This document shows, piece by piece, positions 10,649-34,411 of a DNA stretch of 64,000 bases (position 1 is its first letter; each line of letters begins with the position of its first letter). The stretch lies in contig CM026423.1 of assembly GCA_014871385.1 (NCBI GenBank), positions 15,420,467 through 15,484,466 on the forward strand, in the 5' to 3' direction. The position numbers and the translations under genes were made by a program. The notes under the pieces were generated by a model, which made no database searches, was not told the DNA's origin, and saw nothing but the letters and a program-made list of their open reading frames with translations. This DNA is from Ceratodon purpureus. Lineage: Eukaryota > Streptophyta > Bryopsida > Pseudoditrichales > Ditrichaceae.

Positions 10649-11922
10649 CTACTTATGCACAATGGCCACGGCACATAATTAGACAGGAAACCCCTACTAC
10701 AACTTCAACAAGCACAGAAATGCCACATGGACCACACACAAACTGAGCACCGTTCAGAAAACCCTAGACGCTGTGAACACCGCCCGGGTCTCAATGAATT
10801 TGAAGGTTCTGCAGTACTCACTAATAACAACAGTGAGCTCCTTGACACTGAAATCGGAGAATAGAGAAGAAATACTTTACTTAGGCACGAAGCATTTGAG
10901 ATTTCATTAAGCTCAAGCAGTTAGATCCGAAACCCTAAAAATCATGGAAGCTGGGATCCTTCGCAAAGCATTGAAAACATTGAACAGTCGTCCAGCACTA
11001 TCCCTGCATTTCCTAAGAAGACTAACCTAACCCTTCCCTCTCTCAGCAATCCCGAATCCTAGAATCTGCGGAGAATCAATTCACTGAACCAGAATTGATT
11101 GAATATCGCAAGATTGAACAAGTTCGTGTAGAGCAGCAATTGTGATACCTCTCCGAATCGGACTCCGCAGCTCCAAGGCAAAACAGTGAGCGAAGAGCGA
11201 TGGCGTGGTCCCTCAACGACGCGCAGCAGCAGCAGAGCAGTTGGTGAAGTGGGACGAACCGAATAAAGACAGCTTCAGCTGCAAGATCTCTAGACGCCGA
11301 CGTCACACACAGAGTAATTTATCAGGAGAAAAACCCAACGAGCATCACGAAGGTCAACACAATGTAATTTCAAAACGACACAGGGTCTGAAAGACCAAGG
11401 ATGCAATCCCTCCAATCGCACTACAACTTCAACCTCAGTTACCCTACTACAACTCCAACCACAAGTACCCCCGAAATGAAGAGGACGTGCCTTCTGACCC
11501 GGAGCACCTCCTCTCCACCGATGACTGGAGAGTACTGGACAATGCCACAAATTGGGTAGACATGGTGGCTGGAGAGAGGCGAAATTAGGGTTACCTAGTC
11601 ACCAGACTGTCGTAGTCGTGGTTTCTCCACTCCATCCTAACCCGTCCACTCAGCCGCAACGTCTCAAAGCGTGGAGGCCACCTCAGCCACGAGCAATCAC
11701 CTCGGCAGGCCACCCAGACAATCCAACCAGGGTCACCTCCACGAAGTGATGGAGTGACGCTGTAGTAAGCAAAGAACCTATGCGAAGAAGGAGCCATAAT
11801 TTTGTTGCAAAGTTTAGAACGAATGCCACTACACCCATTGTAGTGATGGTAAGAAAATAATAAAATAAAAGGAAAAATATTTACGATTTGTCCTGAACAC
11901 TTGACAGAACAGCCCTCAGTGT
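10649..11922. other. Upstream flank of the minus-strand gene, no gene seen
   Basis: This is the promoter side of the six-exon gene. Short ORFs occur on both strands but lack splice or homology support. A small dyad at about 11,825-11,848 (CACTACA...TGTAGTG) is visible. The last 35 bases before the transposon match the tandem repeat on its far side. Confidence 0.5.
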
Positions 11923-11930
11923 CACTTGCC
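11923..11930. repeat. Left target-site duplication, CACTTGCC
   Basis: CACTTGCC directly precedes the left inverted repeat and recurs directly after the right one at 34404-34411. If the last T of the right end is counted, the duplication is nine bases (TCACTTGCC), the commonest length for Mutator-like elements. The sequence before this copy (GAACACTTGACAGAACAGCC and on) also occurs at 34425-34460, where it runs uninterrupted into ATATCACTTG, giving the empty-site structure. Confidence 0.85.
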
Positions 11931-12050
11931 AGGGGAAAGTTCGTACGTGAGCGGAGAGCGTAGAGCGGAGAGCGGTGAGCGCAGAATGGAGAGCACAGAA
12001 TTGAAAATTAGGAAAATTTCCAAAAGCAAAGTAGACCCTATAACCGTGGA
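11931..12050 (+). repeat. Left terminal inverted repeat of the 22.5 kb element
   Basis: The end starts AGGGGAAAG and contains the 18-base word GTACGTGAGCGGAGAGCG (11943-11960), which occurs as its exact reverse complement at 34374-34391. Reiterated GCGGAGAGCG units follow, matched in inverted order at the other end. A further 17-base block GACCCTATAACCGTGGA (12034-12050) is inverted exactly at 34195-34211. Similarity between the two ends is patchy between these blocks. Confidence 0.85.
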
Positions 12051-12694
12051 AAATTACTAAATTAAGGCTTAATTTTGATACTTTTTTTAGAAAAAGATTA
12101 TATTACCGTGGAAATTAGGGTTATCTCTGGTAAGAATTTATTACGTTTGTTCTCAAAGATACAAATTAGGGCTGATGTCATGATGACGTCATGCATACAT
12201 TCCTTTAGATTTGTCATGGGTTTAGGCAAGATACAATGATCAGGAGTTGAGTTTTAGATCAAACAAATAATTCTTTCATAGGATTATGTAAATGCACAAG
12301 ACAAATTTGAAAGAACGTAAAGGAGGCAAGGTTTGAAAACTTCCTGGAATATTTCAAAATTCGTGTATAATATCTGAACTGCTGAAACCAAAATATACCT
12401 TGTTAGAGTCCTTGTCTTCATCGAAGATTACTCTCTCTTCCTAGGCAGCAAAGCATCTTCATTTGAGTGATACAAGTAGGAGATTTTCATCATCAAACAA
12501 CACTTGGTAAGCTGGGTTCCAGAGAAGGAGGTCACTCTTGGTTTCTTGAGCTTGTCTCTAGGTGGCGTATTTGGATAGTGACACAGTCCTTGGCATGCTG
12601 TGCTGTATGCAAAGGTAGCGTAGGAGTTCGGGGATGTCAATCTGCAAGCTTGAGTGTAACGTTTGAAGACTACAAGAATTCAGTGTGTTGCGCG
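12051..12694. other. Left subterminal non-coding region of the element
   Basis: AT-rich, with several imperfect dyads and a TGATGACGTCATG palindrome near 12,180, a CRE/TGACG-type word that could be a promoter element for the small ORF downstream. No ORF here is convincing. Confidence 0.4.
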
Positions 12695-13066
12695 ATGCCG
12701 AAGGTGTGTAATGCGAGATCCAGGAGGACAAGAGCGGCTGTAGGTTTGCCCCCAAAGGCACCGGCGAGTTATGAGGAGCTGCGGCCGTGGCTGTTGGAGG
12801 TGGAGCGCGCCAGGGAACGAGGCATGGACCTGCCACCGTTTAGGCACATCGGAAGCCTCCATGTTGGTGAAGGTGAATGGCGTTGGACAGTGCTTTGTAC
12901 CAATGAGCTTCTCCGAATTATGGAGTTGTCCCTAATCCCGTATCCCTTGCTTTCGAACGTCGATGAGAATCCAGTTGTTGAGCTGCCCGAAGTGATCATA
13001 TCGGATGGCGAAACTTGCTGGTTTGATATGGACAAGAGTTGGACTGTATATCCTCCAAAGGATTAG
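12695..13066 (+). CDS. Small accessory protein of the element, 123 residues, unknown
   Basis: An ATG-initiated ORF in the left arm of the transposon. The N-terminus is basic (NARSRRTRAA), followed by an amphipathic segment (YEELRPWLLEVERARERG), a central WRWTVLCTNELLRIMELS stretch and an acidic C-terminus. Codon use looks coding and GC-richer than its AT-rich surroundings. A spliced upstream exon is possible, since the frame stays open upstream of the ATG. I do not recognise the family. Its position inside the element, outward of the methyltransferase-like gene, suggests an accessory product, but that is inference. Confidence 0.45.
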   Translation: MPKVCNARSRRTRAAVGLPPKAPASYEELRPWLLEVERARERGMDLPPFRHIGSLHVGEGEWRWTVLCTNELLRIMELSLIPYPLLSNVDENPVVELPEVIISDGETCWFDMDKSWTVYPPKD

Positions 13067-13580
13067 TATTGTGAAGTCTAGCCGGGTGTTCGAATACAAT
13101 CCTTAAGATTTGGTCTTTTATTGGATCTAGATAGGAGTATTCCAGCATGATGGTTTTAGATAATATAGATGATTCTAGAAATAAGAGAACTCGAAACCAA
13201 CTAAAACAAAGGGTCTTAAAAGTTCGTGGAATATTTCAGAGTTCGTGTACAATACTGGAGTAGCAGAAACCAAGATGTACACCAAGTCAAGAATAGGTAA
13301 CATGGCTTTGCAAATGTGGGATTTTGAATGAGTAAAATATAAGTTAAAGCGCAATTTAAATTTTGAGCATTTCTTTTGTAACATTTCATTCTTCATATTA
13401 TATTTTGAGCATTACGGTTGTGACATTTCATCCTCTACATAGGAGGAGACGATTTGGAAATGAGAATCGTAACAAGTATAGATTCAGGGTAGTAGAGTAG
13501 ACGAAGGATTACGCAATGAACTCCAATTAAATCAAATCAAATCCAATGAAAACAATGAAAGACCGAAGCCTCCTTCAAAC

Positions 13581-16500
13581 TCAGAAAATGCTACCATCGC
13601 TACTTCCACTCTCAGAACTAGATGACTCTGAATCTCCTTCTACCGCCTCGTCATCGACGAATAGAAGGGCCCTGGGATCAAAAGTAGTTGGCCGACTTGG
13701 AACATATGTTAGGGCTCCAGATTGAAACGCCTGTGCTAAGTCCTCTGCGTAGTCCGGAAGTATGAAAGGCTGAATCGGGCTGGAATGAAGACGCCACGAT
13801 GGAGTGGACACTGCTCTTGGCCCACGTGGCGATGTTGCTGAAACTACTCTGCAATAGAGAACCGATTGTGGTTAGATAGAGTACGTAGAGCTGGAAAGAG
13901 AAGTAATGATTGGATAATTTGAACAAAGAATAGAAGACTTACACCACTTGTCAGGTCTTGCTCTCTTAGGAGGCGCTTCGCCTGCTGCTGCCGGCCTTGG
14001 ATGTTTAGGAGGACCCATGGCTGATGGTTTGAGAAGGGCGTTGAATATGGCTTCGTCCTCCTCAAAAGCGAGAATGTGACGACCAACAGCCTGGGCGGCC
14101 TTGATAGAGGCCCCTGAAACTCGAAGAGAAACAAAGAAATGAGAAACTTTGGAAAAAACGAGAGGAAAAATGAAGCAGAGATATGTAAGAAGAGTTACCT
14201 GTCCCAGCATTCCAGTCAAGGACTATGTCGTCGGGCTTGGACAGCTCCTCAATGATGCTCTGCATCATCTCAGGGGATTTCTCCCTTGGGCCTCTCCACG
14301 GCACCTCCCCATTCGTGAGCTGAGATTCGGCATCGGTGAAGTTGAAAATGGCATCACTCTTGGTAATGTTGAGGAGCCCATGTATCAGGTCTTCCTTCTT
14401 CGTCTGGAAGGAGAAAGTACTGCCACTACGAACGTAGACGCGAATCCAGAACCGCATAGTCTGCAGTCAAGCAAAACTAGTGAGTAAAATTAAGCGGAAG
14501 GGTTATCAGTAAGTAAAAAGAACGGTATGTTTAGGAAAAGTACCAAGTTCTCGGGGTTCGTAGGAGAAGTGAGGCCGAGAACATTGACGCCCCACCAGTC
14601 CTTGAACAGCACGTATCCACCACCAGCAGCTTCTTCCTCGATATCCTTAGCCAGCTTCTGATCAGTGTTGTAGATGAGGCAGAGGGCACCATCTATCTGC
14701 AGGAATTCATCTGCAAAATGGAAGATGTCGTACAAATAATCCCTGTAGCGAGAGTTCCAAGGCGGAATACTCGTGGGGGGAACGGAAACGGATGGGACGG
14801 GAAGATTCTCAGGGATGTCGGCAATGATCAAGTCGACTCCTAGATGGTCCTCTTGTTTGCACCGGTCCGGAACTTCGTTTTCGCGGCTTGCTCCAAACTT
14901 GAGGAAACAAGAAAGGAGAGTTAGTAACTACATAGCGAGTACATGTGGCAGAATCCATTAAATGTCAAAATATAGGAACAAACCTTGCGAATGAAGTCTT
15001 GAGTCTTCATCCAATCCGGGTCGCCACCTTTTCTCTCCTGTCTCCTATTTCGCCGTAACATGGAATCCACAGATGAGTTGAAGACGGAAACATGTGTGGA
15101 AATCGAAGCTCCAGCGGAAGAAGTTGGTTGAGGATATAGTTTGGCCTTCCTCTGCTCAATGAGACTTCGCGTGATCGCAGAAGCACCAATGGATGAAGGC
15201 GCAGTCGCTGTGGTCGACGTTGGCATTGGGACGTCTACAGTTGGAGAAGCGTTGCCCGTCTCCTTCCCTGGTGAGGAAGACTCAGCCCCAGTATCTTGTG
15301 AGGTCTGTGACTTCGAACCCAGTGTTCGTAGTCGCCGAGCTCTCCCTTTCTTCGCTCGAGGTGCAGATGATTGACTTTGATGTTCTTCGTCTTCTTCAGA
15401 ACTGTCGTTGGAGTCTCCGACTACTGGCGCTCGAAGATCAAGTGATGATTTGACATCGGCCTCAGAATCGACTGTAAAACCACGGAGGCAATCTAGATAC
15501 CAACATCCTGCCTCCAAGTGGGGAGCTTTGTACCTCTTCAATTGCTGAGCAGAGTAGATACACTCGTCCGTGCCTCTCTGGATCCATAAAGGAAAGTACT
15601 TCGGGAGTTGGTGGACAGTGACGGCTCCTTTGGGAAGAAGCTCTCTCTTGAAGTACCTAATGTGGGCCAATTTTAAAATACTTAGTATGTGGGAGAGACG
15701 AAATGCAGGATTCAAAATGCACACATGTTTGAGTAAAGATTCATACCGGTAGATGACTCGCTTGACAACATCGGCCGTTCCAGGGAATTTCGTGAAAATC
15801 GACTTCTTATCAAAAGTCTTCTTCGCCTTGGATCCAAGGAATGCCGGGAATGCTCTGTCCCAAAGCAGAATACGCCAGCTCTCCACGTAATCGCCTGGAC
15901 GCTGAACATCAGGGGAGGCATTCCAATTGATGTCCAGCTCCTCCGCCTTACACAGGTCCTCAAACTCATGGATGACCGCTTCTTCCAACTACAAGACACA
16001 GTCAGCAAAATTAGTCTACGACAATCAAAGTGATAGAATGACAAAGACATTATCAGTTCTGGAAATAAGAGAGCATACCCCTGCCCAGAATGAAGCCCTG
16101 TTTAGCCATCGTTCGAGGTCAGCTTCCTTGAACTCCGGTGGTGGGAACCTATAAGATTGCCTTGAAGTCGGAGAGGAGTTCCACCACCTCAACCAACGAG
16201 CTTTGTACTTGGGTTCCACTGCAGCCGGCACAATCTTCTGCAGCTTGTCCAATGTCATCTCAGGTTTGTTGACATCGCTGAAGTGGCGGTTAATCTGCAA
16301 TTAGAATAGAACAGTTATCTTAATAAAATCAAGATAACACAGGAGATACGAACAAAATAGCTTAAGATAAAGTGATTAAGGAATTACCTCGGCAAGGAAG
16401 TCATCACCATTCTTGGGATTCGCAATGGCCAAGTACTCGAGGAAGTCCTTCTTCTTGACGGCCTCGATGTAGTTGTTTGACGCTGTCGTCATCGCATCCC

Positions 16501-18310
16501 AAACTCCAGATCCAGATTGATCCTCTATTGGCGTGTTCTCCTTGTAGGCTCTTGCGGCCTGATCCGAGGCGTCTGCAATCTCTCTCTGTACATGGAGATA
16601 CAACATATTAAAATCAATGTACAAACAACTTGAAATGCATGTACAGAACGAATGTACTGAGTCATGGTATAAATTCTTACTCGGTATAGGAACGCAATGA
16701 AAACCTTCGTTGTCAAGGTGAACCACCGGTCCTTTGCGTGTTTGTTCTGCACACAGATTTGAAACTCCTCTGGGCTAAGAAGATCTTTGAATTCTTCTAA
16801 CTTCATGACACCGAAAGAGCGAATGCGGAATAACTTCGCTGGAAGATTACTCTTCACATGGTCATTCTCAGTAGACCTGTGAAAAAAAAAACTGTTTAGA
16901 AAACACTTCCTAGTAGAAGGATGATCCGAAATCAAATTTAAGGAATTGTTCAACCAAAATTCTTACCAGTTGATGTCATGCATCGCATGGAGAAGATTGC
17001 CCACTTGGCCGCGGGGGTCCAATATGATGCAATGCACGGAGATGTGCCAAGCTGGGTCATCGGCATGATGCTTGTTGATGTGTCGTAACCAAGCTGAAAG
17101 GCGATGGTTACCTTCCCATACAAAAAACATTTTGCCACTGAATTGATTGAGGTCATCGTCTCTTTGGAGGTCGGCTTCGAAGGCTTCGTTAGCCTTGCGC
17201 CAGCACGGGCTCCACTTTGCCTTCTCTTCCTCCGTGACATCCTTTGACATCTCTTCAGTTTTGTACATGGAAATATACATCACGCGGTCCCCATCTCTGT
17301 AACCCTTCACGAACTCCCTCTCCAGATGTTGCACGCCCATTTCGCCAACCGGTCTGACTTTTGCCATTGCGACCATTCTACACAATGGGACAAGCAGGCG
17401 AGACTTCCTCAAGGGCTGAATACGAACGACATTGATGACGTTGATCGAGTCAACTTTATGCTGTGTTCGATGAAGCAATTCCCCTTCAACAACGTCTTTC
17501 AAGTCCAGAGGCTTTGATGATGATGGCAACACGTCCTCTGTTTGCGTCAACTCGGGTACCTGCCGTAAGCAAAAGAAATGAACAATCAAACTCAACAATG
17601 TAGATACTGAAGAATGGAATTTACCAGTCACTTAGAGATTTTCTCATAAATGAAAGAGTAAAAAAAAACATCTCAAATTTCATCTATGGCACCAAGCATC
17701 AAGGCCGTGCCACTCTACGAGGAGCCCTTCCATAGTACTGTCTAGCCTCTCTACTATTCCAATGATGGCGCCTCCTCCAAAATCGCCTGGTCTGACGGCA
17801 AGCGCTGGGCAGTATAGCCGGAAGGGCAAACACTACATGGGCCGGCCTCCTCAACACCAGAGGTGAAACAGGGGGATTAGGCGAAGACGGCGGCGTGCCA
17901 AGACGTGGCGAGGTGGGCATGTACACTGGAGAGGTGGGCATGTACACTGGAGAGGTGGGCTCATAAACAGGCGATGTAGGCATGTACTGGGGTGACTGGA
18001 CCTCGAAAGGTCCAGTGTCTACACCTAAAGGAATGGCTAAATCACAGGTACAGAAACGCTCATCCTCTGGGTCTGACAGGTCTGAAAGGTTGATTACAGA
18101 GATTGGAGAATTGACAGACATGTCGGGAGCATCTGAACCTACCTGCAAGTACAAGGCACATGGGGAAGTTAGTGTTTTCAAATCATTTGAAATAACTCAA
18201 CTTCAATTATTTCGGAAATGAAGAACATGTGTATCCAACAAATATAACATCAAAAACTATACCTCACTCTCCTCAGGTCCCTTGCTTTCACTCTCGGTCC
18301 CCATGTTCTG
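13581..18310 (-). CDS. ParB-like and N4/N6 DNA-methyltransferase-like fusion protein
   Basis: Twelve exons on the minus strand (18310-18263, 18142-17858, 17559-16967, 16876-16681, 16585-16388, 16294-16079, 15988-15747, 15656-14984, 14897-14544, 14460-14199, 14113-13943, 13837-13581) join in phase to 1,165 codons ending TGA. Residues 69-96 are CTD-like heptads (YMPTSPVYEPTSPV). Residues about 150-300 look ParB-like: VRPVGEMGVQHLEREF, then FFVWEGNHRLSAW with WEGNHRL near 259. The C-terminal third resembles a beta-class amino-methyltransferase: LIIADIPENL at about 840-849 sits where DPPY is expected, and VLDWNAGTG at 1015-1023 where the SAM-binding VLDPFxGxGT is expected, followed by AAQAVGRHILAFEED. 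Both motifs are altered, so catalysis is doubtful. PPKRARPDK is a likely nuclear signal. The weakest splice is the donor at 17858. Two more exons at 27.4-28.4 kb could precede it. Confidence 0.75.
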
Positions 18311-18486
18311 CTGTGAAGTATCCTATACGTCATAGAAAATGCACTAATGTCATTTATTAAAATCATTTTCTCCCGCGAGCAAAGTAAAGAAGTTAAAAAG
18401 CCTCATAAGAAGTAAATAATAATAATCATAATAAATCATAATAAAGAAGTTATTTCGCGAAAAAAAAAAAAAAAAACAAAATTCAA

Positions 18487-21400
18487 AAAGGCTTTGCTAC
18501 TCATTGGAGGCTCGTGGCCTCCTCGGCCAGGGCTCCATGCTACTGCTCCACAGTGGTTTCTGCTCCGAAACGAGTAGCAAAGCCGCAAGCATACAAATGG
18601 AATTAAATAAAAAAAAAACCACCAAGCCTCATTGGAGGCTCGCGGCCTCCTCTGCCAGGGCTCCATGCTAGTGCTCCACAGTGGTTTCTGCTCCGAAACG
18701 AGTAGCAAAGCCGCAAGCATACAAATGGAATTAAAAAAAATATAAACCACCAAGCCTCATTGGAGGCTCGCGGCCTCCTCGGCCGGGGCTCCTTGCTACT
18801 GCTCCACAGTGGTTTCTGCTCCGAAACGAGTAGCAAAGCCGCAAGCATACAAATGGAATTAAAAAAAAAAAAACCACCAAGCCTCATTGGAGGCTCGCGG
18901 CCTCCTCGGCCGGGGCTCCTTGCTACTGCTCCACAGTGGTTTCTGCTCCGAAACGAGTAGCAAAGCCGCAAGCATACAAATGGAATTAAAAAAAATATAA
19001 ACCACCAAGCCTCATTGGAGGCTCGCGGCCTCCTCGGCCGGGGCTCCATGCTAGTGCTCCACAGTGGTTTCTGCTCCGAAACGAGTAGCAAAGCCGCAAG
19101 CATACAAATGGAATTAAAAAAAAAAAAACCACCAAGCCTCATTGGAGGCTCGGGGCCTCCTCGGCCGGGGCTCCTTGCTACTGCTCCACAGTGGTTTCTG
19201 CTCCGAAACGAGTAGCAAAGCCGCAAGCATACAAATGGAATTAAAAAAAATATAAACCACCAAGCCTCATTGGAGGCTCGCGGCCTCCTCGGCCGGGGCT
19301 CCATGCTAGTGCTCCACAGTGGTTTCTGCTCCGAAACGAGTAGCAAAGCCGCAAGCATACAAATGGAATTAAAAAAAAAAAAACCACCAAGCCTCATTGG
19401 AGGCTCGGGGCCTCCTCGGCCAGGGCTCCTTGCTACTGCTCCACAGTGGTTTCTGCTCCGAAAGGAGTAGCAAAGCCGCAAGCATACAAATGGAATTAAA
19501 AAGAAAAAAACCACCAAGCCTCATTGGAGGCTCGGGGCCTCCTCGGCCGGGGCTCCTTGCTACTGCTCCACAGTGGTTTCTGCTCCGAAACGAGTAGCAA
19601 AGCCGCAAGCATACAAATGGAATTAAAAAGAAAAAAACCACCAAGCCTCATTGGAGGCTCGGGGCCTCCTCGGCCAGGGCTCCTTGCTACTGCTCCACAG
19701 TGGTTTCTGCTCCGAAAGGAGTAGCAAAGCCGCAAGCATACAAATGGAATTAAAAAAAATATAAACCACCAAGCCTCATTGGAGGCTCGCGGCCTCCTCG
19801 GCCGGGGCTCCTTGCTACTGCTCCACAGTGGTTTCTGCTCCGAAACGAGTAGCAAAGCCGCAAGCATACAAATGGAATTAAAAAAAAAAAAACCACCAAG
19901 CCTCATTGGAGGCTCGGGGCCTCCTCGGCCGGGGCTCCTTGCTACTGCTCCACAGTGGTTTCTGCTCCGAAACGAGTAGCAAAGCCGCAAGCATACAAAT
20001 GGAATTAAAAAAAATATAAACCACCAAGCCTCATTGGAGGCTCGCGGCCTCCTCGGCCGGGGCTCCATGCTAGTGCTCCACAGTGGTTTCTGCTCCGAAA
20101 CGAGTAGCAAAGCCGCAAGCATACAAATGGAATTAAAAAAAAAAAAACCACCAAGCCTCATTGGAGGCTCGGGGCCTCCTCGGCCAGGGCTCCTTGCTAC
20201 TGCTCCACAGTGGTTTCTGCTCCGAAAGGAGTAGCAAAGCCGCAAGCATACAAATGGAATTAAAAAGAAAAAAACCACCAAGCCTCATTGGAGGCTCGGG
20301 GCCTCCTCGGCCGGGGCTCCTTGCTACTGCTCCACAGTGGTTTCTGCTCCGAAACGAGTAGCAAAGCCGCAAGCATACAAATGGAATTAAAAAAAATATA
20401 AACCACCAAGCCTCATTGGAGGCTCGCGGCCTCCTCGGCCGGGGCTCCATGCTAGTGCTCCACAGTGGTTTCAGCTCCGAAACGAGTAGCAAAGCCGCAA
20501 GCATACAAATGGAATTAAGTAAAAAAAAAACCACCAAGCCTCATTGGAGGCTCGGGGCCTCCTCGGCCGGGGCTCCTTGCTACTGCTCCACAGTGGTTTC
20601 TGCTCCGAAACGAGTAGCAAAGCCGCAAGCATACAAATGGAATAAAAAAAAAACTAAACCACCAAGCCTCATTGGAGGCTCGCGGCCTCCTCGGCCGGGG
20701 CTCCTTGCTACTGCTCCACAGTGGTTTCTGCTCCGAAACGAGTAGCAAAGCCGCAAGCATACAAATGGAATTAAGTAAAAAAAAAACCACCAAGCCTCAT
20801 TGGAGGCTCGCGGCCTCCTCTGCCGGGGCTCCTTGCTACTGCTCCACAGTGGTTTCTGCTCCGAAACGAGTAGCAAAGCCGCAAGCATACAAATGGAATT
20901 AAAAAAAATATAAACCACCAAGCCTCATTGGAGGCTCGCGGCCTCCTCGGCCGGGGCTCCTTGCTACTGCTCCACAGTGGTTTCTGCTCCGAAACGAGTA
21001 GCAAAGCCGCAAGCATACAAATGGAATTAAGTAAAAAAAAAACCACCAAGCCTCATTGGAGGCTCGGGGCCTCCTCGGCCAGGGCTCCTTGCTACTGCTC
21101 CACAGTGGTTTCTGCTCCGAAAGGAGTAGCAAAGCCGCAAGCATACAAATGGAATTAAAAAGAAAAAAACCACCAAGCCTCATTGGAGGCTCGGGGCCTC
21201 CTCGGCCGGGGCTCCTTGCTACTGCTCCACAGTGGTTTCTGCTCCGAAACGAGTAGCAAAGCCGCAAGCATACAAATGGAATTAAAAAAAATATAAACCA
21301 CCAAGCCTCATTGGAGGCTCGCGGCCTCCTCGGCCGGGGCTCCTTGCTAGTGCTCCACAGTGGTTTCTGCTCCGAAACGAGTAGCAAAGCCGCAAGCATA

Positions 21401-24400
21401 CAAATGGAATTAAAAAAAAAAAAACCACCAAGCCTCATTGGAGGCTCGGGGCCTCCTCGGCCAGGGCTCCTTGCTACTGCTCCACAGTGGTTTCTGCTCC
21501 GAAAGGAGTAGCAAAGCCGCAAGCATACAAATGGAATTAAAAAAAAAAAAACCACCAAGCCTCATTGGAGGCTCGGGGCCTCCTCGGCCGGGGCTCCTTG
21601 CTACTGCTCCACAGTGGTTTCTGCTCCGAAACGAGTAGCAAAGCCGCAAGCATACAAATGGAATTAAAAAAAATATAAACCACCAAGCCTCATTGGAGGC
21701 TCGCGGCCTCCTCGGCCGGGGCTCCATGCTAGTGCTCCACAGTGGTTTCAGCTCCGAAACGAGTAGCAAAGCCGCAAGCATACAAATGGAATTAAGTAAA
21801 AAAAAAAACCACCAAGCCTCATTGGAGGCTCGGGGCCTCCTCGGCCAGGGCTCCTTGCTACTGCTCCACAGTGGTTTCTGCTCCGAAAGGAGTAGCAAAG
21901 CCGCAAGCATACAAATGGAATTAAAAAGAAAAAAACCACCAAGCCTCATTGGAGGCTCGGGGCCTCCTCGGCCGGGGCTCCTTGCTACTGCTCCACAGTG
22001 GTTTCTGCTCCGAAACGAGTAGCAAAGCCGCAAGCATACAAATGGAATTAAAAAAAATATAAACCACCAAGCCTCATTGGAGGCTCGCGGCCTCCTCGGC
22101 TGGGGCTCCATGCTAGTGCTCCACAGTGGTTTCAGCTCCGAAACGAGTAGCAAAGCCGCAAGCATACAAATGGAATTAAGTAAAAAAAAAACCACCAAGC
22201 CTCATTGGAGGCTCGGGGCCTCCTCGGCCGGGGCTCCTTGCTACTGCTCCACAGTGGTTTCTGCTCCGAAACGAGTAGCAAAGCCGCAAGCATACAAATG
22301 GAATAAAAAAAAAACTAAACCACCAAGCCTCATTGGAGGCTCGCGGCCTCCTCGGCCGGGGCTCCTTGCTACTGCTCCACAGTGGTTTCTGCTCCGAAAC
22401 GAGTAGCAAAGCCGCAAGCATACAAATGGAATAAAAAAAAAACTAAACCACCAAGCCTCATTGGAGGCTCGCGGCCTCCTCGGCCGGGGCTCCTTGCTAC
22501 TGCTCCACAGTGGTTTCTGCTCCGAAACGAGTAGCAAAGCCGCAAGCATACAAATGGAATTAAGTAAAAAAAAAACCACCAAGCCTCATTGGAGGCTCGC
22601 GGCCTCCTCTGCCGGGGCTCCTTGCTACTGCTCCACAGTGGTTTCTGCTCCGAAACGAGTAGCAAAGCCGCAAGCATACAAATGGAATTAAAAAAAATAT
22701 AAACCACCAAGCCTCATTGGAGGCTCGCGGCCTCCTCGGCCGGGGCTCCATGCTAGTGCTCCACAGTGGTTTCTGCTCCGAAAGGAGTAGCAAAGCCGCA
22801 AGCATACAAATGGAATTAAAAAAAAAAAAACCACCAAGCCTCATTGGAGGCTCGGGGCCTCCTCGGCCAGGGCTCCTTGCTACTGCTCCACAGTGGTTTC
22901 TGCTCCGAAAGGAGTAGCAAAGCCGCAAGCATACAAATGGAATTAAAAAGAAAAAAACCACCAAGCCTCATTGGAGGCTCGGGGCCTCCTCGGCCGGGGC
23001 TCCTTGCTACTGCTCCACAGTGGTTTCTGCTCCGAAACGAGTAGCAAAGCCGCAAGCATACAAATGGAATTAAAAAAAATATAAACCACCAAGCCTCATT
23101 GGAGGCTCGCGGCCTCCTCGGCTGGGGCTCCATGCTAGTGCTCCACAGTGGTTTCAGCTCCGAAACGAGTAGCAAAGCCGCAAGCATACAAATGGAATTA
23201 AGTAAAAAAAAAACCACCAAGCCTCATTGGAGGCTCGGGGCCTCCTCGGCCGGGGCTCCTTGCTACTGCTCCACAGTGGTTTCTGCTCCGAAACGAGTAG
23301 CAAAGCCGCAAGCATACAAATGGAATAAAAAAAAAACTAAACCACCAAGCCTCATTGGAGGCTCGCGGCCTCCTCGGCCGGGGCTCCTTGCTACTGCTCC
23401 ACAGTGGTTTCTGCTCCGAAACGAGTAGCAAAGCCGCAAGCATACAAATGGAATAAAAAAAAAACTAAACCACCAAGCCTCATTGGAGGCTCGCGGCCTC
23501 CTCGGCCGGGGCTCCTTGCTACTGCTCCACAGTGGTTTCTGCTCCGAAACGAGTAGCAAAGCCGCAAGCATACAAATGGAATTAAGTAAAAAAAAAACCA
23601 CCAAGCCTCATTGGAGGCTCGCGGCCTCCTCTGCCGGGGCTCCTTGCTACTGCTCCACAGTGGTTTCTGCTCCGAAACGAGTAGCAAAGCCGCAAGCATA
23701 CAAATGGAATTAAAAAAAATATAAACCACCAAGCCTCATTGGAGGCTCGCGGCCTCCTCGGCCGGGGCTCCATGCTAGTGCTCCACAGTGGTTTCTGCTC
23801 CGAAAGGAGTAGCAAAGCCGCAAGCATACAAATGGAATTAAAAAAAAAAAAACCACCAAGCCTCATTGGAGGCTCGGGGCCTCCTCGGCCAGGGCTCCTT
23901 GCTACTGCTCCACAGTGGTTTCTGCTCCGAAAGGAGTAGCAAAGCCGCAAGCATACAAATGGAATTAAAAAGAAAAAAACCACCAAGCCTCATTGGAGGC
24001 TCGGGGCCTCCTCGGCCGGGGCTCCTTGCTACTGCTCCACAGTGGTTTCTGCTCCGAAACGAGTAGCAAAGCCGCAAGCATACAAATGGAATTAAAAAAA
24101 ATATAAACCACCAAGCCTCATTGGAGGCTCGCGGCCTCCTCGGCTGGGGCTCCATGCTAGTGCTCCACAGTGGTTTCAGCTCCGAAACGAGTAGCAAAGC
24201 CGCAAGCATACAAATGGAATTAAGTAAAAAAAAAACCACCAAGCCTCATTGGAGGCTCGGGGCCTCCTCGGCCGGGGCTCCTTGCTACTGCTCCACAGTG
24301 GTTTCTGCTCCGAAACGAGTAGCAAAGCCGCAAGCATACAAATGGAATAAAAAAAAAACTAAACCACCAAGCCTCATTGGAGGCTCGCGGCCTCCTCGGC

Positions 24401-27010
24401 CGGGGCTCCTTGCTACTGCTCCACAGTGGTTTCTGCTCCGAAACGAGTAGCAAAGCCGCAAGCATACAAATGGACTTAAGTAAAAAAAAAACCACCAAGC
24501 CTCATTGGAGGCTCGCGGCCTCCTCTGCCGGGGCTCCTTGCTACTGCTCCACAGTGGTTTCTGCTCCGAAACGAGTAGCAAAGCCGCAAGCATACAAATG
24601 GAATTAAAAAAAATATAAACCACCAAGCCTCATTGGAGGCTCGCGGCCTCCTCGGCCGGGGCTCCTTGCTACTGCTCCACAGTGGTTTCTGCTCCGAAAC
24701 GAGTAGCAAAGCCGCAAGCATACAAATGGAATTAAGTAAAAAAAAAACCACCAAGCCTCATTGGAGGCTCGCGGCCTCCTCTGCCGGGGCTCCTTGCTAC
24801 TGCTCCACAGTGGTTTCTGCTCCGAAACGAGTAGCAAAGCCGCAAGCATACAAATGGAATTAAAAAAAAAAAAACCACCAAGCCTCATTGGAGGCTCGGG
24901 GCCTCCTCGGCCAGGGCTCCTTGCTACTGCTCCACAGTGGTTTCTGCTCCGAAACGAGTAGCAAAGCCGCAAGCATACAAATGGAATTAAAAAAAAAAAA
25001 ACCACCAAGCCTCATTGGAGGCTCGCGGCCTCCTCTGCCGGGGCTCCTTGCTACTGCTCCACAGTGGTTTCTGCTCCGAAACGAGTAGCAAAGCCGCAAG
25101 CATACAAATGGAATTAAAAAAAATATAAACCACCAAGCCTCATTGGAGGCTCGGGGCCTCCTCGGCCGGGGCTCCTTGCTACTGCTCCACAGTGGTTTCT
25201 GCTCCGAAACGAGTAGCAAAGCCGCAAGCATACAAATGGAATTAAAAAAAAAAAAACCACCAAGCCTCATTGGAGGCTCGCGGCCTCCTCGGCCGGGGCT
25301 CCTTGCTACTGCTCCACAGTGGTTTCTGCTCCGAAACGAGTAGCAAAGCCGCAAGCATACAAATGGAATTAAGTAAAAAAAAAACCACCAAGCCTCATTG
25401 GAGGCTCGCGGCCTCCTCTGCCGGGGGTCCTTGCTACTGCTCCACAGTGGTTTCTGCTCCGAAACGAGTAGCAAAGCCGCAAGCATACAAATGGAATTAA
25501 AAAAAATATAAACCACCAAGCCTCATTGGAGGCTCGCGGCCTCCTCGGCCGGGGCTCCTTGCTACTGCTCCACAGTGGTTTCTGCTCCGAAACGAGTAGC
25601 AAAGCCGCAAGCATACAAATGGAATTAAATAAAAAAACCACCAAGCCTCATTGGAGGCTCGCGGCCTCCTCGGCCGGGGCTCCATGCTAGTGCTCCATAG
25701 TGGTTTCTGCTCCGAAACGAGTAGCAAATTCGCAAGCATACAAATGGAATTAAAAAAGAAAAAACCACCAAGCCTCATTGGAGGCTCGGGGCCTCCTCGG
25801 CCGGGGCTCCTTGCTACTGCTCCACAGTGGTTTCTGCTCCGAAACGAGTAGCAAAGCCGCAAGCATACAAATGGAATTAAAAAAAAAAAAACCACCAAGC
25901 CTCATTGGAGGCTCGCGGCCTCCTCTGCCGGGGCTCCTTGCTACTGCTCCACAGTGGTTTCTGCTCCGAAACGAGTAGCAAAGCCGCAAGCATACAAATG
26001 GAATTAAAAAAAATATAAACCACCAAGCCTCATTGGAGGCTCGCGGCCTCCTCGGCCGGGGCTCCTTGCTACTGCTCCACAGTGGTTTCTGCTCCGAAAC
26101 GAGTAGCAAAGCCGCAAGCATACAAATGGAATTAAAAAAGAAAAAACCACCAAGCCTCATTGGAGGCTCGGGGCCTCCTCGGCCGGGGCTCCTTGCTACT
26201 GCTCCACAGTGGTTTCTGCTCCGAAACGAGTAGCAAAGCCGCAAGCATACAAATGGAATTAAAAAAAAAAAAACCACCAAGCCTCATTGGAGGCTCGCGG
26301 CCTCCTCGGCCGGGGCTCCTTGCTACTGCTCCACAGTGGTTTCTGCTCCGAAACGAGTAGCAAAGCCGCAAGCATACAAATGGAATTAAATAAAAAAACC
26401 ACCAAGCCTCATTGGAGGCTCGCGGCCTCCTCGGCCGGGGCTCCATGCTAGTGCTCCACAGTGGTTTCTGCTCCGAAACGAGTAGCAAAGCCGCAAGCAT
26501 ACAAATGGAATTAAAAAAAATATAAACCACCAAGCCTCATTGGAGGCTCGGGGCCTCCTCGGCCGGGGCTCCTTGCTACTGCTCCACAGTGGTTTCTGCT
26601 CCGAAACGAGTAGCAAAGCCGCAAGCATACAAATGGAATTAAAAAAAAAAAAACCACCAAGCCTCATTGGAGGCTCGCGGCCTTCTCGGCCGGGGCTCCT
26701 TGCTACTGCTCCACAGTGGTTTCTGCTCCGAAACGAGTAGCAAATCCGCAAGCATACAAATGGAATTAAAAAAAAAAAAACCACCAAGCCTCATTGGAGG
26801 CTCGCGGCCTCCTCGGCCGGGGCTCCATGCTAGTGCTCCACAGTGGTTTCTGCTCCGAAACGAGTAGCAAAGCCGCAAGCATACAAATGGAATTAATTAA
26901 GAAAACCACCAAGCCTCATTGGAGGCTCGCGGCCTCCTCGGCCGGGGCTCCTTGCTACTGTTCCACAGTGGTTTCTGCTTCGAAACGAGTAGCAAAGCCG
27001 CAAGCATACA
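18487..27010 (+). repeat. Satellite-like tandem array, 127-128 bp monomer, about 67 copies
   Basis: Near-identical monomers run head to tail for 8.5 kb inside the transposon. Each has a GC-rich half with a dyad (GGAGGCTCGCGGCCTCC), a second dyad (TTGCTACT ... AGTAGCAA), and an A-rich spacer. The spacer comes in several types (AAAAAATATAAA, all-A, AAGTAAAA, AATAAAA...CTAAA), giving 127 or 128 bp. A higher-order unit of eight monomers, 1,022 bp, repeats at 22077, 23099 and 24121; the third copy has lost one monomer near 24.4 kb. The long ORFs that span the array on both strands come from periodicity (three or six monomers stay in frame) and are not genes. Confidence 0.95.
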
Positions 27011-27443
27011 GAGCAGAGCAACCCGAAGCAGAGGAACCCGAAGTAGCAACAGCAGAGAAATAAACCCCAACACCAAGAAGTGAAGCAATTCCCACTCCCC
27101 AAACCTCCAATCCCCGGTACCGCAATCTCCATTCCCCAAACCCAACTCACTTTCGAATTCACATTCTCCGAACCCAAGTGTAGCAAATCCCGAATCCCGA
27201 AACCAAGTTCATCCGTAGCATCCGAAATCCGAATCTAGAATCCCCAAGTCGCGAATCTTCTTCAAGCACAAGCATTTCTTGAATTCAACTTCACCACATA
27301 TCCCAACAACCGCGGAACCCGAACCCACCAAGCACTCTCACATTATCCAAGCACCGAAGCACCCTGCAATCTCTCAACAATCCCCCTCGAACTCCCAACC
27401 AGCTTCCAGCAAGTAGTTTGAGCAAACACAAAAGCTCGCCTAC

Positions 27444-28423
27444 CTCGTCGTCGTTGTCGTCGTCGTCGTGCAGGTCCTGAAGCTGGTCTTCGACCTGGTC
27501 CCCGTGCTGCACTCCGACCTGCTCCTCGAGCTCCACACCTCCATCGACCTCAACGAGATCACCTTCGCCGCGGCCGCCCACAATCTCCACAGGCTGCGCA
27601 GCCATTGCTCTCCCTCCCTCTCCTGCGTCGAGAATACCTTGCCTCGCTCTTCTCGCTTCGAGACGCAGGTGCTCAAACTCGATGCAATCTCCAACTGCGG
27701 AGCCACCAGATAGATCCCCGACCCCTCTCATCCTCTCGGGGCTCTGTGTAAAAATAGCAAACATTTAAAATCATGATTCCTGTGTGTCAAGTGCCGCGGC
27801 CCTCTCAATGAGACTTATGATTCGAATGTGTAAATTGCCGCGGCCCCTCTCAAATAGACTTAGAACGAACCTCAAATTCTTTATTAAAACTTTTCAATTA
27901 CTAACGTTTTACAAAAACACTAGATTACACAAATAATTCACATCACCGTCGTAATAGAGAGAATATAAATACTTACCTTGTCGGGGTTTAAACAAAAGTC
28001 TGATTGAGAATCAGGCTCCCCTGTCGAGAACTCATTGAATGAAATCGATGGTTGCGGAGACTCTAGTTTCTGACTACAATTAAAGACTAATTCTTCACTC
28101 ATGGCCTCACGTGCTCCTCTTCTTAAATGTACAACCTGTTCCTGCTCGTGGTTCTCGACGTCCGTGTTCTCTAATAATTCCTCTTTCTCCTCTACTATAG
28201 AGTTGAGAATGAGTTTGCGAAGGCTACAAAACTTCAAAGCTACAGGCAGGTCTCCTCCTCTCCGTTTCACGGGTGCACTCAAATGGTCACTTTTAAAATC
28301 TACCTGCTTACGTGATGCTCTCCTCTTTCTAGCTCTTCTATTTGTAAAATCAGTGCGGCCAGGTTTCCTTCTTTGTTTAGGAGTAACATAAGTGGAGGGA
28401 GATGGCCCTCCACTCTGCTTCAT
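27444..28423 (-). CDS. Two-exon basic/acidic ORF, possible 5' exons of the methyltransferase-like gene
   Basis: Exons 28423-27977 (149 codons, ATG start) and 27743-27444 (100 codons) are joined by a GTAAGT donor and a TTTACACAG acceptor, both in phase 0. The first encodes a very basic segment (KQRRKPGRTDF, RRARKRRASRKQ) and the second a Gly/Glu-rich region ending in a run of Asp (DLHDDDDNDDE). The second exon ends at GAG before GTAGGC, also phase 0. The next minus-strand exon that could accept it in phase is 18310-18263, on the other side of the satellite array. If they are joined, the protein is about 1,413 residues and the array lies in a 9.1 kb intron. Otherwise this is a separate short gene. 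No domain is recognised. Confidence 0.5.
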
Positions 28424-29059
28424 GTGTCTAACCAAAGGAAGGACTCTCTCACAAAAAGACTTTCATGAAAACTTCTCCCTGCTTAAATACCTCTCACATA
28501 CAACTATTCTCCTAGAACCCTAAGTTGATATACAATCTCAACAACTGACACATTGTCTGCCCACTTTATATTAAGAATATATTTAACAATTCTATAATTG
28601 AAGCTAGATTTAAAATATCAACCTTTAATTATAAGGAATATATCTAAGTGCACTATAAATTGAAAGATTTGAATCTAGCACTTCAATCATGCTCCTTTTT
28701 ATATTCATTGTTTTAAATGTAGAATTAAAATGACGGCTCATTCTAATCTTATAATACATCATGTCAAATAGAATCCGCTCTACGATTCAAATTTTAAAGT
28801 AGAGTTCAATAAACCTTACCTCATATACTTAGACCTGCAAAAAGTGGCACTGTAATTAGTTAGCGCCGTCTCTCTTAAATCATACATTCGTTACCTAACA
28901 GACAGCATCATTCCCCAACTATTCACATGGACATTCCAACCTGAATAAAATGATCATCAACGATGCATCATTCCTCTCACTTTGCTCTCGCGATAGCGCT
29001 TGGCTGATACACTCACTCTCCTCCCTTCTTCCACTAGTATCACTGAGTTGCCTGCGAAC
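28424..29059. promoter_or_regulatory. Divergent intergenic region inside the element
   Basis: This 0.6 kb AT-rich stretch separates the leftward ORF (ATG at 28423) from the rightward transposase (first in-frame ATG at 29060). It is therefore the likely shared promoter region. No specific motif is secure. Confidence 0.4.
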
Positions 29060-32000
29060 ATGGGGATGGTCTGTCTGTACGCCCAAGGCATGGGCATCCC
29101 TCTTAGGTTTCGCGTAGATGACGATGGTCTAGCTACGGTGTCCTCTCTTCGCCTCAGTCTCAGATTCCATTTCCGTGAGGATTCCATCAATATAGAGGAG
29201 GAGATCTTCGATGACGTTACTGCGGAGGTTACCCACACCCTCGGGCAACCTTCAGTAAGAGATGAGAACAACATGTTGCAGTGGAGACTCCTCCCTGGAT
29301 CCTATAGAGTCTATGGTCTTTCTGATTCTCTGATGGCTGCATCCACTGAGATCCTCACCCCCCGTCGCTCTTCTACTTGCACAATTCAGACTCCCTTACC
29401 TCGTGATGTCAAGGTCAAAGTCGAGCCTGGTACCGAGACTTCAGATGTAGAGAAACCTCCTCCGACCGTCATATCTCTCTCTTCTGACGACGAAGTCAGT
29501 CCCGTCAAGTTGGTGCCTAAGGTCCACGCAGATGCTCCTCCTTCCAATGTCTCTCCTCCATTGTCCCAGGTCACAATTAGCATTGTTCCGCTCCTTAAAG
29601 AGATTGCTAAGACGCGTGGGTCCAAAAACATTTTGAAGAAGATAGACTATTCCACTATTAGACACGAGAGAGTAGAGTACTTGCCGGCGAAGTTTGATGG
29701 TCCGGTTCTTTTTGAGTTGCCCCCAGCTGCTGCAGGATCCTCTAAGCTCGCCGCCAAGTCTATGCAGGGAATGGATAAACGATACGACGGACACTTGTGG
29801 ACCAAGACCATCACAACAAACATCAAAAACGACTTCGGACTCTCTTTTCGAAGTTCCACTTGCGTCGGATGGCTGCGCTGCAGCAACAAGGAGTGTGACT
29901 TCCTGAAGCGTGTTCCCAAGATCTTCGAGGTTAACGAGACTGAGTTCGAAGGCTGTACCCTGCAAGCTTTTGTCATGGACCAGCCTCCTCCATCTGACTC
30001 CACGCTAGTGTGCAAGGTATGTAAAGAACCTCCATCATGTGTAGCTACATGCGAGGCTAAGATTTATTACGTTGTGGGCAAACCGAATCAGACTAGAGCT
30101 TGTATTCACATAGGAACACATGATCATCCAGTGAAAGTCGGAGACTACAGAGACTCTAAAGCAGAGATTAGTAGCTTAATAGAAGAGCAGGTAGAGATGA
30201 ACAACAAAGCAACAAAGAGCGCCGTTGTCCTGGAGGCGAGCAAACTCCTCATCGGGAGCTACCTTCTACAGCCCGAGGATGCACCGCCGAGGAAGCTGAC
30301 GATGGAGGAGCTGGTTCCTGTTTTGGATCGTTGCAAAGACATGGCGTCACCAAACATCCGCAACAAAGTCGCCACCTTCAAAAAATTCAAAAGGTACGGA
30401 ATCATGGACGGTATCACCAAGCTCCGTGGTAACAGTCTCTGGGCGTATGTCCAGGAGAATAGGTTTCCTGGTCAGGGATCTATGCGTGACAAAGTCTTCG
30501 TCTTCAAGATGTCGGAGGTCGGGCCCGGAAGTGGTTTCGACTTGGTCAGCCGAATGCAAGCTGGTGGAGACCTGGAGAACGCATGGATCATGTTCGACCA
30601 TGTAAAACGCGTCAAAGACTGGTCGACCATGGCGTGCCATGTGTACGACGCCACCTACTGCCGCGTGATGACAATCGCCACTTGCGACATGCAGTCCGAG
30701 GACACGGACGCCCAGCTCGTCTTCTGGAAAAACCTGAACCTGGTCATGGAGATCAATGGCGTTGCAGCGCCGAACTTCAAGGGGTTCATGGCGGATAACG
30801 CACAGGCGAATTGGAATGCAGTGCGAATCCTTTACGGCAATGGCAACAAAGAGGACCCAATGGAGGACCGGGAGCGGTCGTGCTTGTTCCACTGGACTCA
30901 GAACATGGTGGCGTATACGCAGAAGCACTTCCCCGAAGAACTCTGGGAACAGCACAAGAAGATGTGTACTCAGTACAAGAATGCGACCAGCATGGCAGAG
31001 GCGGAAACTCTGTACCACGCGTTGCGAGCATGGTGGGCATCCACCGGGGTCGTTGGCGAGAGCGGCCTCATCAAACTCGATCAGTGGCTGTCATTCTAGC
31101 ACCACCGCTTCCGCCAGTGGGGGGGATTCATGACCGAGGTACGATCTCTGCACTCTGTTTTGATGTTTTAGATACTGGTTTCCTAGCCCTAACCTACAAA
31201 ACTCTAATCCGTGAATCTAACGTCACCTACTGTCAAATCTGCAGAAATTCACGAAAGACGAACTCACAGAGATGCCCACCTGTAACCTCGCCGAAACAGT
31301 TCACAACAAGTGGCTTCAAGCTTCTGGAAACAACGGGAACGACCTCTACGTTGCTACCGTGGACGATTTCGTTCGGGCTTTTCTTCAGGTTATTAACTAC
31401 TACCAGTTCCTCAAAGGTGACGTCGGCGGAACAGGACCGTCCAAGAAGGAACTCAGGCTCCGGATGGCTGAACGCAACGCGAAGAAATGGGGAAATCCTA
31501 CACTGCTTGATAAGCCCATGCTCGATATGCCAGGCGCGGATGAGTTCTGCACCCGTCAGCCTATCATGCCTGGAGCGGAAGTCTTCGGTTCACAGAAGCG
31601 AAAAGCCGACGTCCCCATCGGAGCTGACGAGGAGTCTCATCGCCCGGACAAGACAAACTTCTCACGCCCAAGAGGCCCAAGACGTGCCGTCAGGGCTCGC
31701 CCTATGCAGATGCCCGTCATTGTGGAAGACGACTCCGAACACGACACCGAGGTACAATGTACCCAATCTCCTGCCCAGGAAGTTGATTCCCCTTTACCTT
31801 CACCTGTGAACAAGGGCGGCATTCGCCATGTCAACGCGGTTGAAGAAACCAAGGTCGACGTCAAGGAATGGCACATTTCCAGACTTCACAAACTTTCTGC
31901 GAAGTGCTGCTGGGCCCAAAGAGCTGAAACGAAGAAGAAGTGCACTGAGAGAATCGTCAGGGGGCCCCTTTGCACAGCTGCACCGACCTACACTGGGCTG

Positions 32001-32738
32001 TGGACTAACTATCGCAGGAACACAGTCGAGAAGACTGAGTTCTTCTTCTGCTCCGACGATATTGAGCGCTGCGTGAAAGGCTCTAAGCGCAAGTGGGTAG
32101 CGCACTACTCAAAGGACCAGGAATTCCCCTCCATTCCTGACGTCTGGCCAGTGAAACTAGGTACTAACCTAAAACTGACTGAGATTCTTGCCCTCGAAGC
32201 TGCAGGCTTTCAACTTCCGCCGAAGAAGCCCGTCTCCCCAAGACGCCTCTTCTCCTTTGCCCCGCCCCCTGCAAATCTCAACTCGGTGCCAGTCCCTGCA
32301 GACGCTGACCGCTACCCAGGCAAGAGAGACGGCAAGATGGTGAAGCGCACTGCCACTCGTCCCAATCCGGCGCAGCGACTATCCATGGGCTCCTCCGAGT
32401 CTCTCAAAGCGCGCCTCCGTTCCGTCACCATGATACCTGAGCCGGGCCACGGTTGCATCATTGGGCTGGATTCGGGCGTCGCTCCACACATCACATGTTA
32501 CCAGATTACCATCAGTTCTTACCCTGGTTGCACTTGCCCAGCATTCAAGAAGACGATGACTACGTTCAAAGGCAGGACTCAGTTCACGTATTGTAAGCAC
32601 CTTTACTACATACTCTTGAAGGTCTGCAACCGTGATCCCGAGGCCGAGCTTTTCATCCATGCGCCTACCTTTAGCTTCAACGAGGTCAAGCTTCTCCTAG
32701 AGAGTGGAATCTTGCGTCACCCCTTGGCGAAGAAGTAG
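29060..32738 (+). CDS. MULE-type transposase with WRKY-GCM1-like and SWIM zinc fingers, one in-frame TAG
   Basis: Exons 29060-31138 and 31245-32738 (GTACGA donor, CTGCAG acceptor) give about 1,190 residues. The N-terminal ~200 residues include an acidic SSDDE patch. Near 270-355 a C-x4-C ... H-x-H set (CSNKEC, IGTHDHP) matches the WRKY-GCM1/FLYWCH fingers found in MULEs. A DDE core follows: YDATYCRVM, FMADNAQANWNAV, CLFHWTQNM. Near the C-terminus CTCPAF ... YCKHLYY is a SWIM finger. Such proteins cut and join transposon ends in the nucleus. A TAG at 31097-31099 interrupts the first exon just before HHRFRQWGGF, which reads on in frame to the splice site, so it is probably a nonsense mutation of Gln or Trp. 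The start is the first in-frame ATG; the frame is open upstream. Confidence 0.8.
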
Positions 32739-32992
32739 GTAGCCCTCCTACTTTAGAACTGCCGTTTCCACAATGGCCATTTGTCACGTAGTGAATGATT
32801 TTAGTAATATACCATGTATTAAGTCAGCTATTCAGAAGCTGTATTGACTTTTTCATTATATTAAAGGCTTTGTCGATCACATTGATTGCATTCTATTTCA
32901 ATACATTCTATCTTGAACAAGTGCACTATATACCTCGTATCCTCTGACATGTACCCTTTATTATAGCAAACATATACTTGTTATTAGATGTC

Positions 32993-33445
32993 CTAATCTT
33001 CGAACCTAACACGTTTAGGGTTGCCCACTACACTATCAGCAGGGCTCCGAACCTCTGACTGTACTGCAGGACAAACTATATTTGCATTCACTTTCGTTCC
33101 AACATTTGGCAAGTGTCCTTGGTATGAACGTTTCAGCAATGGCCCACCTCCCCGCCTCCGATTCACTGATTCCCTGGAATAGGTTCCCCTTGGGATCTTT
33201 CCAACCCTGGAGTATGCATGAGTTTGCAAAGGCACATCTGCGTTCTCCTCCAGCACTCTGATATCATCCGAATTTTCTGAACGTGGAGATTCAGCTCTTA
33301 CATCCGGTTGTACGTCAACATCCGTTGTCAAAGGACGCCCTTGGCTGTTGGCCATCACCTCTTCTTCGTCCTCGACCTCAACATATGGTTGAAATGGACA
33401 AACATCGTCAGCAAGTGATACAACAATATCTCTAACGTCTTCCAT
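32993..33445 (-). CDS. Small acidic accessory ORF of the element, 150 residues, unknown
   Basis: An ATG-to-TAG ORF on the minus strand, converging on the transposase and ending 255 bp from it. The N-terminal half is acidic (YVEVEDEEEV, SENSDDIRVLEEN). The C-terminal half is basic and Gly/Arg-rich (SVNRRRGGGPLLKRS) and ends PKRVRFED. Base composition and codon use look coding against the very AT-rich flank at 33.5-34.3 kb. I do not recognise the family. As the outermost ORF of the right arm it mirrors the small ORF at the left end. Confidence 0.5.
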   Translation of the reverse strand: MEDVRDIVVSLADDVCPFQPYVEVEDEEEVMANSQGRPLTTDVDVQPDVRAESPRSENSDDIRVLEENADVPLQTHAYSRVGKIPRGTYSRESVNRRRGGGPLLKRSYQGHLPNVGTKVNANIVCPAVQSEVRSPADSVVGNPKRVRFED

Positions 33446-34403: not shown

Positions 34404-34411
34404 CACTTGCC
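34404..34411. repeat. Right target-site duplication, CACTTGCC
   Basis: Direct copy of 11923-11930, immediately followed by ATATCACTTG. That is also what follows the same word in the uninterrupted repeat unit at 34454-34471. Confidence 0.85.

Follow-up and report, generated by a model that had tools for sequence, protein, structure and literature searches.

In ParB-parS partition systems, the ParB gene adjoins short parS sites with dyad symmetry. ParB-methylase genes have been reported in transposons of brown, red and green algae, with self-methylation proposed for their products (PMC12477816; this and the other reports cited here are represented by excerpts). In Arabidopsis, the targets of VANC, the anti-silencing proteins of VANDAL elements, are in many cases arranged as tandem repeats, which differ from one related transposable element (TE) to another (PMC5735166). 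Here, we analysed a stretch of 64,000 nucleotides from the moss Ceratodon purpureus (hereafter, the window; C3:15420467-15484466 of the 362 Mb and 151 contigs of the genome searched), in which a mobile element carries a gene for a protein with a ParB-like and a methyltransferase-like half. The gene travels with the transposase gene of the element and, in many copies, adjoins a tandem array that changes rapidly yet retains a core specific to the subfamily. With both domains, a large DNA transposon as carrier and a position opposite the transposase, the predicted gene is of the algal accessory-gene kind, its ParB half being the weak part of this assignment.

Judged by its published description, Sola1-1_Ec32 of Ectocarpus (PMC12477816) resembles the moss element in size (21.5 kb versus 22.5 kb here), in carrying its gene opposite the transposase and in the encoded protein (1104 versus 1138 amino acids, aa), both proteins combining a ParB-like and an N4/N6 methyltransferase part. 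By contrast, its carrier is a Sola1 element, whereas that of the moss resembles Mutator-like elements (MULEs) and has 10-bp target site duplications (TSDs); the window lineage differs from the algal genes in having lost the aromatic residue of methylase motif IV (DIPE versus DIPY/DQPY), and tandem arrays go unmentioned in the excerpts of the algal report. New relative to the algal genes are the land plant host, the MULE-like carrier, the DIPE form of motif IV and the tandem array 5' of the gene in many copies. An earlier, sequence-only reading of the locus had taken such a fusion in a plant MULE to be undescribed, a claim overtaken by the accessory genes of algal transposons (PMC12477816); our literature search found no published account of this gene in a moss, and the locus apparently extends the range of the ParB-methylase transposon genes from algae to a land plant. 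Unlike the algal report, as far as its excerpts go, a single genome with many copies provides naturally occurring variants of the protein as well as of its candidate DNA sites, so that self-recognition by a transposon and escape from silencing become directly testable with cognate and non-cognate arrays. By repeat anatomy, the moss gene and array also resemble the VANC system, which likewise involves a TE-encoded accessory protein, rapidly evolving tandem repeats in non-coding element DNA and a variable protein part with tandem peptide motifs (PMC5735166). However, VANC action has been shown by experiment, whereas the moss protein is known here from its sequence, and a ParB or methylase domain is unmentioned in the excerpts on VANC. 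As in the ParB-parS systems, a ParB-like gene lies close to dyad-symmetric sites, although the moss arrays consist of units of 117-348 bp as opposed to short parS sites.

A dynamic program working on splice sites and codon use gave one long gene model starting with the ATG at 18304 on the minus strand. Its 12-exon version (18304-13581) encodes 1138 aa with no internal stop, and all introns are GT-AG, with weak site scores at several. The last ~88 residues are uncertain because the junction of exons 11 and 12 is weak, requiring an acceptor ending GAG at 13847, and the program's own top path instead has 13 exons and 1094 aa; later protein searches used residues 1-1050 only. Copy C11, which is 98% identical at the DNA level, aligns across all 12 exons and copy C3b across exons 2-12 (exon 1 was not found), with stops confined to introns in both. 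The gene model is far beyond chance, which confirms the ParB-like/methyltransferase-like gene of the sequence-only reading, its 12 exons joined in phase included, apart from the uncertain last junction. Exon 2 encodes at least 2 heptads resembling those of the RNA polymerase II C-terminal domain (CTD) in 35 of 39 copies, either possible mimicry or a simple repeat at the protein N-terminus; a match to the polymerase CTD (E value 2e-16) reflects the heptad repeat and was not accepted as homology.

The element is bounded by inverted repeats (11938-11999 pairs with 34397-34335 inverted, 63 bp, 88.9%) and by TSDs. In a TSD search that allowed sliding ends, with ends picked for agreement between copies, a 10-bp TSD was found at identical element ends in all 3 copies (window, C11 and C3b), that of C3b being readable as 10-12 bp and a longer flanking repeat matching too in the window. 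The C11 element is 98.3-98.5% identical to that of the window on either side of the array, and C3b shows 85% identity over most of the gene part and 90-92% over the transposase part. TSDs of 8-11 bp are reported for MULEs (PMC6446971). Reading by eye revealed a SWIM-like CxC...CxH at about 32529-32600 and a DAT...MADNA...CLFHW pattern in the transposase; a Pfam search returned no MULE or SWIM match in either transposase open reading frame. The transposon carrier proposed earlier is supported by the terminal inverted repeats, the TSDs and a divergent transposase; its assignment to the MULEs is based on TSD length, terminal inverted repeats and the SWIM-like motif. Both genes are abundant, with at least 150 scored matches among 1,899 candidates for the ParB exon and at least 150 among 2,068 for the transposase, and 126 of the 150 listed ParB-exon matches are free of internal stops. 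The proximity of the two genes, noted earlier in the window, recurs among the listed matches: a transposase lies within 25 kb of 37 of 150 ParB copies, whereas random placement, repeated 500 times, gave 2.9 on average and never more than 10. In 32 of these 37 pairs the transposase is upstream and divergent, as in the window. The C. purpureus U and V sex chromosomes each exceed 100 Mb (PMC8000587), and, among the 24 listed copies whose ParB exon contains a stop, 21 lie on the 110.5-Mb contig C6, likely a sex chromosome.

The tandem array sits between the divergent ParB and transposase genes, 5' of the ParB gene, and turns over rapidly: it has about 67 units in the window but 6.7 in the otherwise 98% identical C11, and the array of C3b is unrelated, with periods of 137, 211 and 348 bp. 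Of 38 upstream pieces, which extend only about 1.1-1.5 kb from exon 3, 24 have arrays that score over 300 in Tandem Repeats Finder (TRF); for loci L009-L038 the figure is 22 of 30. The possibility that the satellite is a chance neighbour was dropped after arrays and dyads recurred upstream of ParB copies. Arrays of the window subfamily were clustered into eight types, A-H, of which D, E, F and G were split by hand, by period and sequence, from one loose cluster. Exon 3 is 94-100% identical between these types and 72-74% identical between them and C3b. The longest word common to all 8 types is the 12-mer TTTCGGAGCAGA, compared with 4 (286 cases) or 5 (14 cases) nucleotides in 300 mononucleotide shuffles. 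This core occurs in 29 of the 30 upstream pieces of L009-L038 and in none of those of the diverged copies L001-L008; it was not found in the remainder of the 38 loci outside the upstream pieces.

Several arrays additionally contain long dyads, which with arms of 10-12 bp exceed the shuffled controls in 6 of 11 monomers tested (reached by 0-1 of 300 shuffles). The dyad GGTGTCTGCTTTCGGAGCAGACACC, which belongs to sister array types (the window type has the 12-mer core only), has 304 exact sites in the genome, compared with 0 for the reversed control. The 100 listed sites all fall into 7 clusters; each cluster shares its strand with a listed ParB copy and lies 0.9-10.3 kb upstream of it. The chance that a random point would fall so near is 0.0035. 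A different dyad, that of the C3b subfamily, has 1706 sites (reversed control, 0), and the 100 listed ones form 12 clusters, counted by hand. Two of these neighbour ParB copies on the list, at 75% identity, and a third is located about 5 kb from a ParB match; for the other nine, about 2 kb was examined where the array orientation predicted the gene, and 7 of the 9 flanks contained a ParB exon 93-95% identical to that of C3b and 65-74% identical to that of the window over the matched stretches. Nine control pieces from the window contained no ParB exon.

The ParB-like half is marked by the WEGNHRL box (residues 257-263 of the window protein). W-[ED]-G-N-H-R-L is present in all 10 aligned ParB-exon sequences, and the arginine of the box is nearly, not fully, invariant in a wider alignment of 23. 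This motif is the part of the earlier ParB assignment that stood; Pfam and PHROG searches gave no match for this half, and hhalign against phage ParB domains reached E 0.03 (probability 1.7%, 24 columns on the GNHRL box), the lowest value among one reversed and ten shuffled controls being 0.11. A single-sequence AlphaFold model of the ParB exon alone has a pLDDT of 36 and no usable fold, and a profile match to ribosomal protein eL24 (E 0.01) was judged to be due to chance. Limited scans, seeded by short back-translated peptides, found no relatives outside the C. purpureus genome for most of the protein in viral contigs, for the ParB exon in phages or for the ParB alignment in viral and genome contigs. 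Comparison of the subfamilies shows that exon 3 and the central exons evolve under purifying selection. Loci L001-L008, the diverged copies, have their exons in the same order as the window gene, with about 47-83% identity in each matched stretch; most contain stops or gaps in some exon (L003 has a stop in exon 3). In comparisons of the window with C3b, L002, L003 and L008 (Nei-Gojobori method, near saturation for some exons), the ratio of nonsynonymous to synonymous divergence (dN/dS) is 0.07-0.11 for exon 3, at dS 1.6-3.0, 0.05-0.16 for exons 6-7 (exon 6 of L002 was not computable) and 0.24-0.32 for exon 8; dS of exon 4 was not computable. Between subfamilies, the computable dS values are 0.7-3.1 for exons 2-8, versus 0.06-0.78 for exons 9-12, a drop in the 3' exons (14897-13581) that suggests recombination between subfamilies, as if the gene were a mosaic.

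In the reading that we favour, which we hold at about even weight, a MULE-like transposon present in many copies carries the gene as an accessory, and the ParB-like half of the encoded protein recognises the element's own array and marks or shields the element. The ParB-like half would bind the tandem array on the DNA of the element and from there the protein would spread or recruit factors, so that the marked or shielded element could oppose silencing or be aided in transposition. A more specific version, in which the protein of each subfamily of family I (the window family) recognises the core of the array upstream of its own gene in a ParB-parS-like manner, co-evolving with it by subfamily and shielding the element against plant silencing, is possible although more tentative. 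That the core survives while the arrays turn over is a stronger hint of such recognition than is the pairing of gene and array. A number of observations weigh against self-recognition. ParB homology, backed at the motif level only, is weakly supported, and between the window and its near copy C11 dN/dS is 0.94 (dS 0.015), with no constraint visible at that depth. No TRF array lies within 1.5 kb in 8 of the 30 pieces of L009-L038, L020 is without the core, and all 4 family II upstream pieces (from a second family, described below) have neither array nor core. The shuffle control overstates the core because the eight array types share descent and are not independent. Furthermore, because an identical or near-identical exon 3 accompanies different arrays, the core common to these arrays is the sole possible site. 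The dyads of L034 and L001 are weak (14 and 13 of 300 shuffles reach them), as are those of the window array type (L009; 6-bp arms, equalled by 39 of 300 shuffles), and L024 (type F) and L007 have no dyad by the shuffle test, which limits the dyads as an explanation of every array. Two of the 9 predicted flanks (L096 and L097) lack a ParB exon. Finally, since gene and array, about 1 kb apart, travel together, their pairing alone is no proof of binding and can be plain co-inheritance.

Active self-methylation, in which adenine or N4-cytosine of the element DNA would be methylated to protect or activate the element, is an unlikely alternative for the window lineage, even though the methyltransferase-like C-terminus proposed by the sequence-only reading was borne out. 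PF01555 matches residues 962-1019 (E 2.9e-8; 34.4 bits versus a cut-off of 26.7; model positions 160-218 of 221), and motif IV (DIPEN) precedes the retained motif I (VLDWNAGT, about 14223-14199), which is the beta-class order. Consistent with methylation, an alignment of methylase exons from five family I copies matches L076-L079, four adenine methylases of phages, over the whole domain (hhalign probability 92%, E 6e-7, 179 columns; E 0.19 or more in ten shuffles), and motif I is common to both. The match to six phage ParB-methyltransferases is weaker (E 0.0012, 49 columns); such proteins (L080, L082, L084, L086 and L088) share the order of ParB and then methylase, but the phage proteins are 249-429 aa long, without the central region, and similar in the ParB part at the G-H-R box only. 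Beta-class N4/N6 amino-methyltransferases have the catalytic motif [DNS]-x-P-[YFW]. Where all 4 phage adenine methylases carry I-A-D-I-P-Y-N, the window has I-A-D-I-P-E-N, which departs from this motif, and none of the 8 readable family I copies has the aromatic residue: the window, C11, C3b, L003 and L007 have DIPE as motif IV, L002 has DVPE, L006 DIRE and L008 DIPK, no motif being readable in L001, L004 and L005. Constraint is also weaker in exons 9-10 (dN/dS 0.15-0.71 in the same four comparisons). Our initial view of a plainly active methylase in the window was downgraded on reading motif IV; the activity has probably been lost or changed in this lineage, and, with its aromatic residue lost (DIPE for DIPY), the methylase half more likely serves as a structural module or a weakened one, which probably still binds S-adenosylmethionine or DNA. 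Searching the genome with PF01555 gave 32 matches and led to a second family, family II (a genome scan gave about 50 matches with an identity of at least 64%), in which the order of ParB, centre and methylase is the same and the ParB exon is 40-44% identical to that of family I. All six family II loci read (L052, L053, L054, L055, L056 and L061) keep the catalytic motif as DQPY or DQPF, which makes family II the stronger candidate for an active N6-adenine or N4-cytosine methylase. Together, the two families provide a natural comparison between methylases that have the catalytic aromatic residue and methylases that lack it.

We also doubt that the protein is a transposition co-factor, such as a ParB-like nuclease aiding the transposase, with the array as a side effect (promoter or recombination-prone filler). 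The tight divergent linkage with the transposase and the swing from about 7 to 67 array units between near-identical copies fit this explanation, and a bacterial ParB-methylase is reported to nick DNA non-specifically (PMC5512222); however, it accounts neither for the persistence of the core through array turnover nor for the methylase-like domain. That the arrays act as hairpins (folded RNA or cruciform DNA, e.g., silencing decoys or replication elements) independently of the ParB-like protein is improbable: the dyad arms change in pairs from one array type to another (GGTGTC/GACACC to CGTGTC/GACACG; GGAGGC/GCCTCC to GAAGGC/GCCTTC) and 5 of 8 monomers fold as single strands at z of -3.3 to -6.9, but z is only -2.2 for the window type, -1.4 for L001 and +0.7 for L007, and the window type keeps the 12-mer core despite lacking a long dyad.

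Table 1. Coordinates of the element, its genes and its repeats in the window
Feature	Positions	Strand	Basis or remark
Target site duplication, left (TCACTTGCCA)	11922..11931	.	
Whole mobile element, 22,471 bp, ends GGGGAAAGTTCGTACGTGAGC... / ...CACGTACAAGCTACGTCC	11932..34402	.	two other copies and TSDs
Left terminal inverted repeat	11932..11999	+	
ParB-like/methyltransferase-like gene	13581..18304	-	splice/coding model and alignment to copies
Exon 1	18304-18263	-	
Exon 2	18142-17858	-	
Four heptads (YMPTSPV-like) resembling RNA polymerase II CTD	17903..17986	-	exon 2
Exon 3, ParB-like region, WEGNHRL at about 17118-17098	17559-16967	-	motif, hhalign, dN/dS
Exon 4	16876-16705	-	
Exon 5	16585-16388	-	
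Exon 6	16294-16079	-	
Exon 7	15988-15747	-	
Exon 8	15656-14984	-	
Exon 9, methyltransferase motif IV region, DIPEN at about 14819-14805	14897-14544	-	
Exons 10-11, methyltransferase motif I region (VLDWNAGTG...GRHILAFEEDEAIF)	13943..14403	-	PF01555 E 2.9e-8
Exon 10	14403-14199	-	
Exon 11	14113-13943	-	
Exon 12, junction with exon 11 uncertain	13846-13581	-	
Tandem array, 128-bp unit, about 67 copies	18500..27010	.	61/61 window sites of TTTCGGAGCAGA
Transposase gene, open parts 28997-31099 and 31221-32738, presumably intron-split	28997..32738	+	
Right terminal inverted repeat	34335..34402	-	
Target site duplication, right (TCACTTGCCA)	34403..34412	.	

The element lies in or beside a CACTTGACATAT-type tandem repeat (11894-11931 and 34403-34821), with 38 bp identical on both flanks. 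Further open frames are found within the element at 27291-28462 (-), 32993-33460 (-) and 12467-13066 (+), and the right half of the window contains long open frames at 41417-45957, possibly belonging to other mobile elements.

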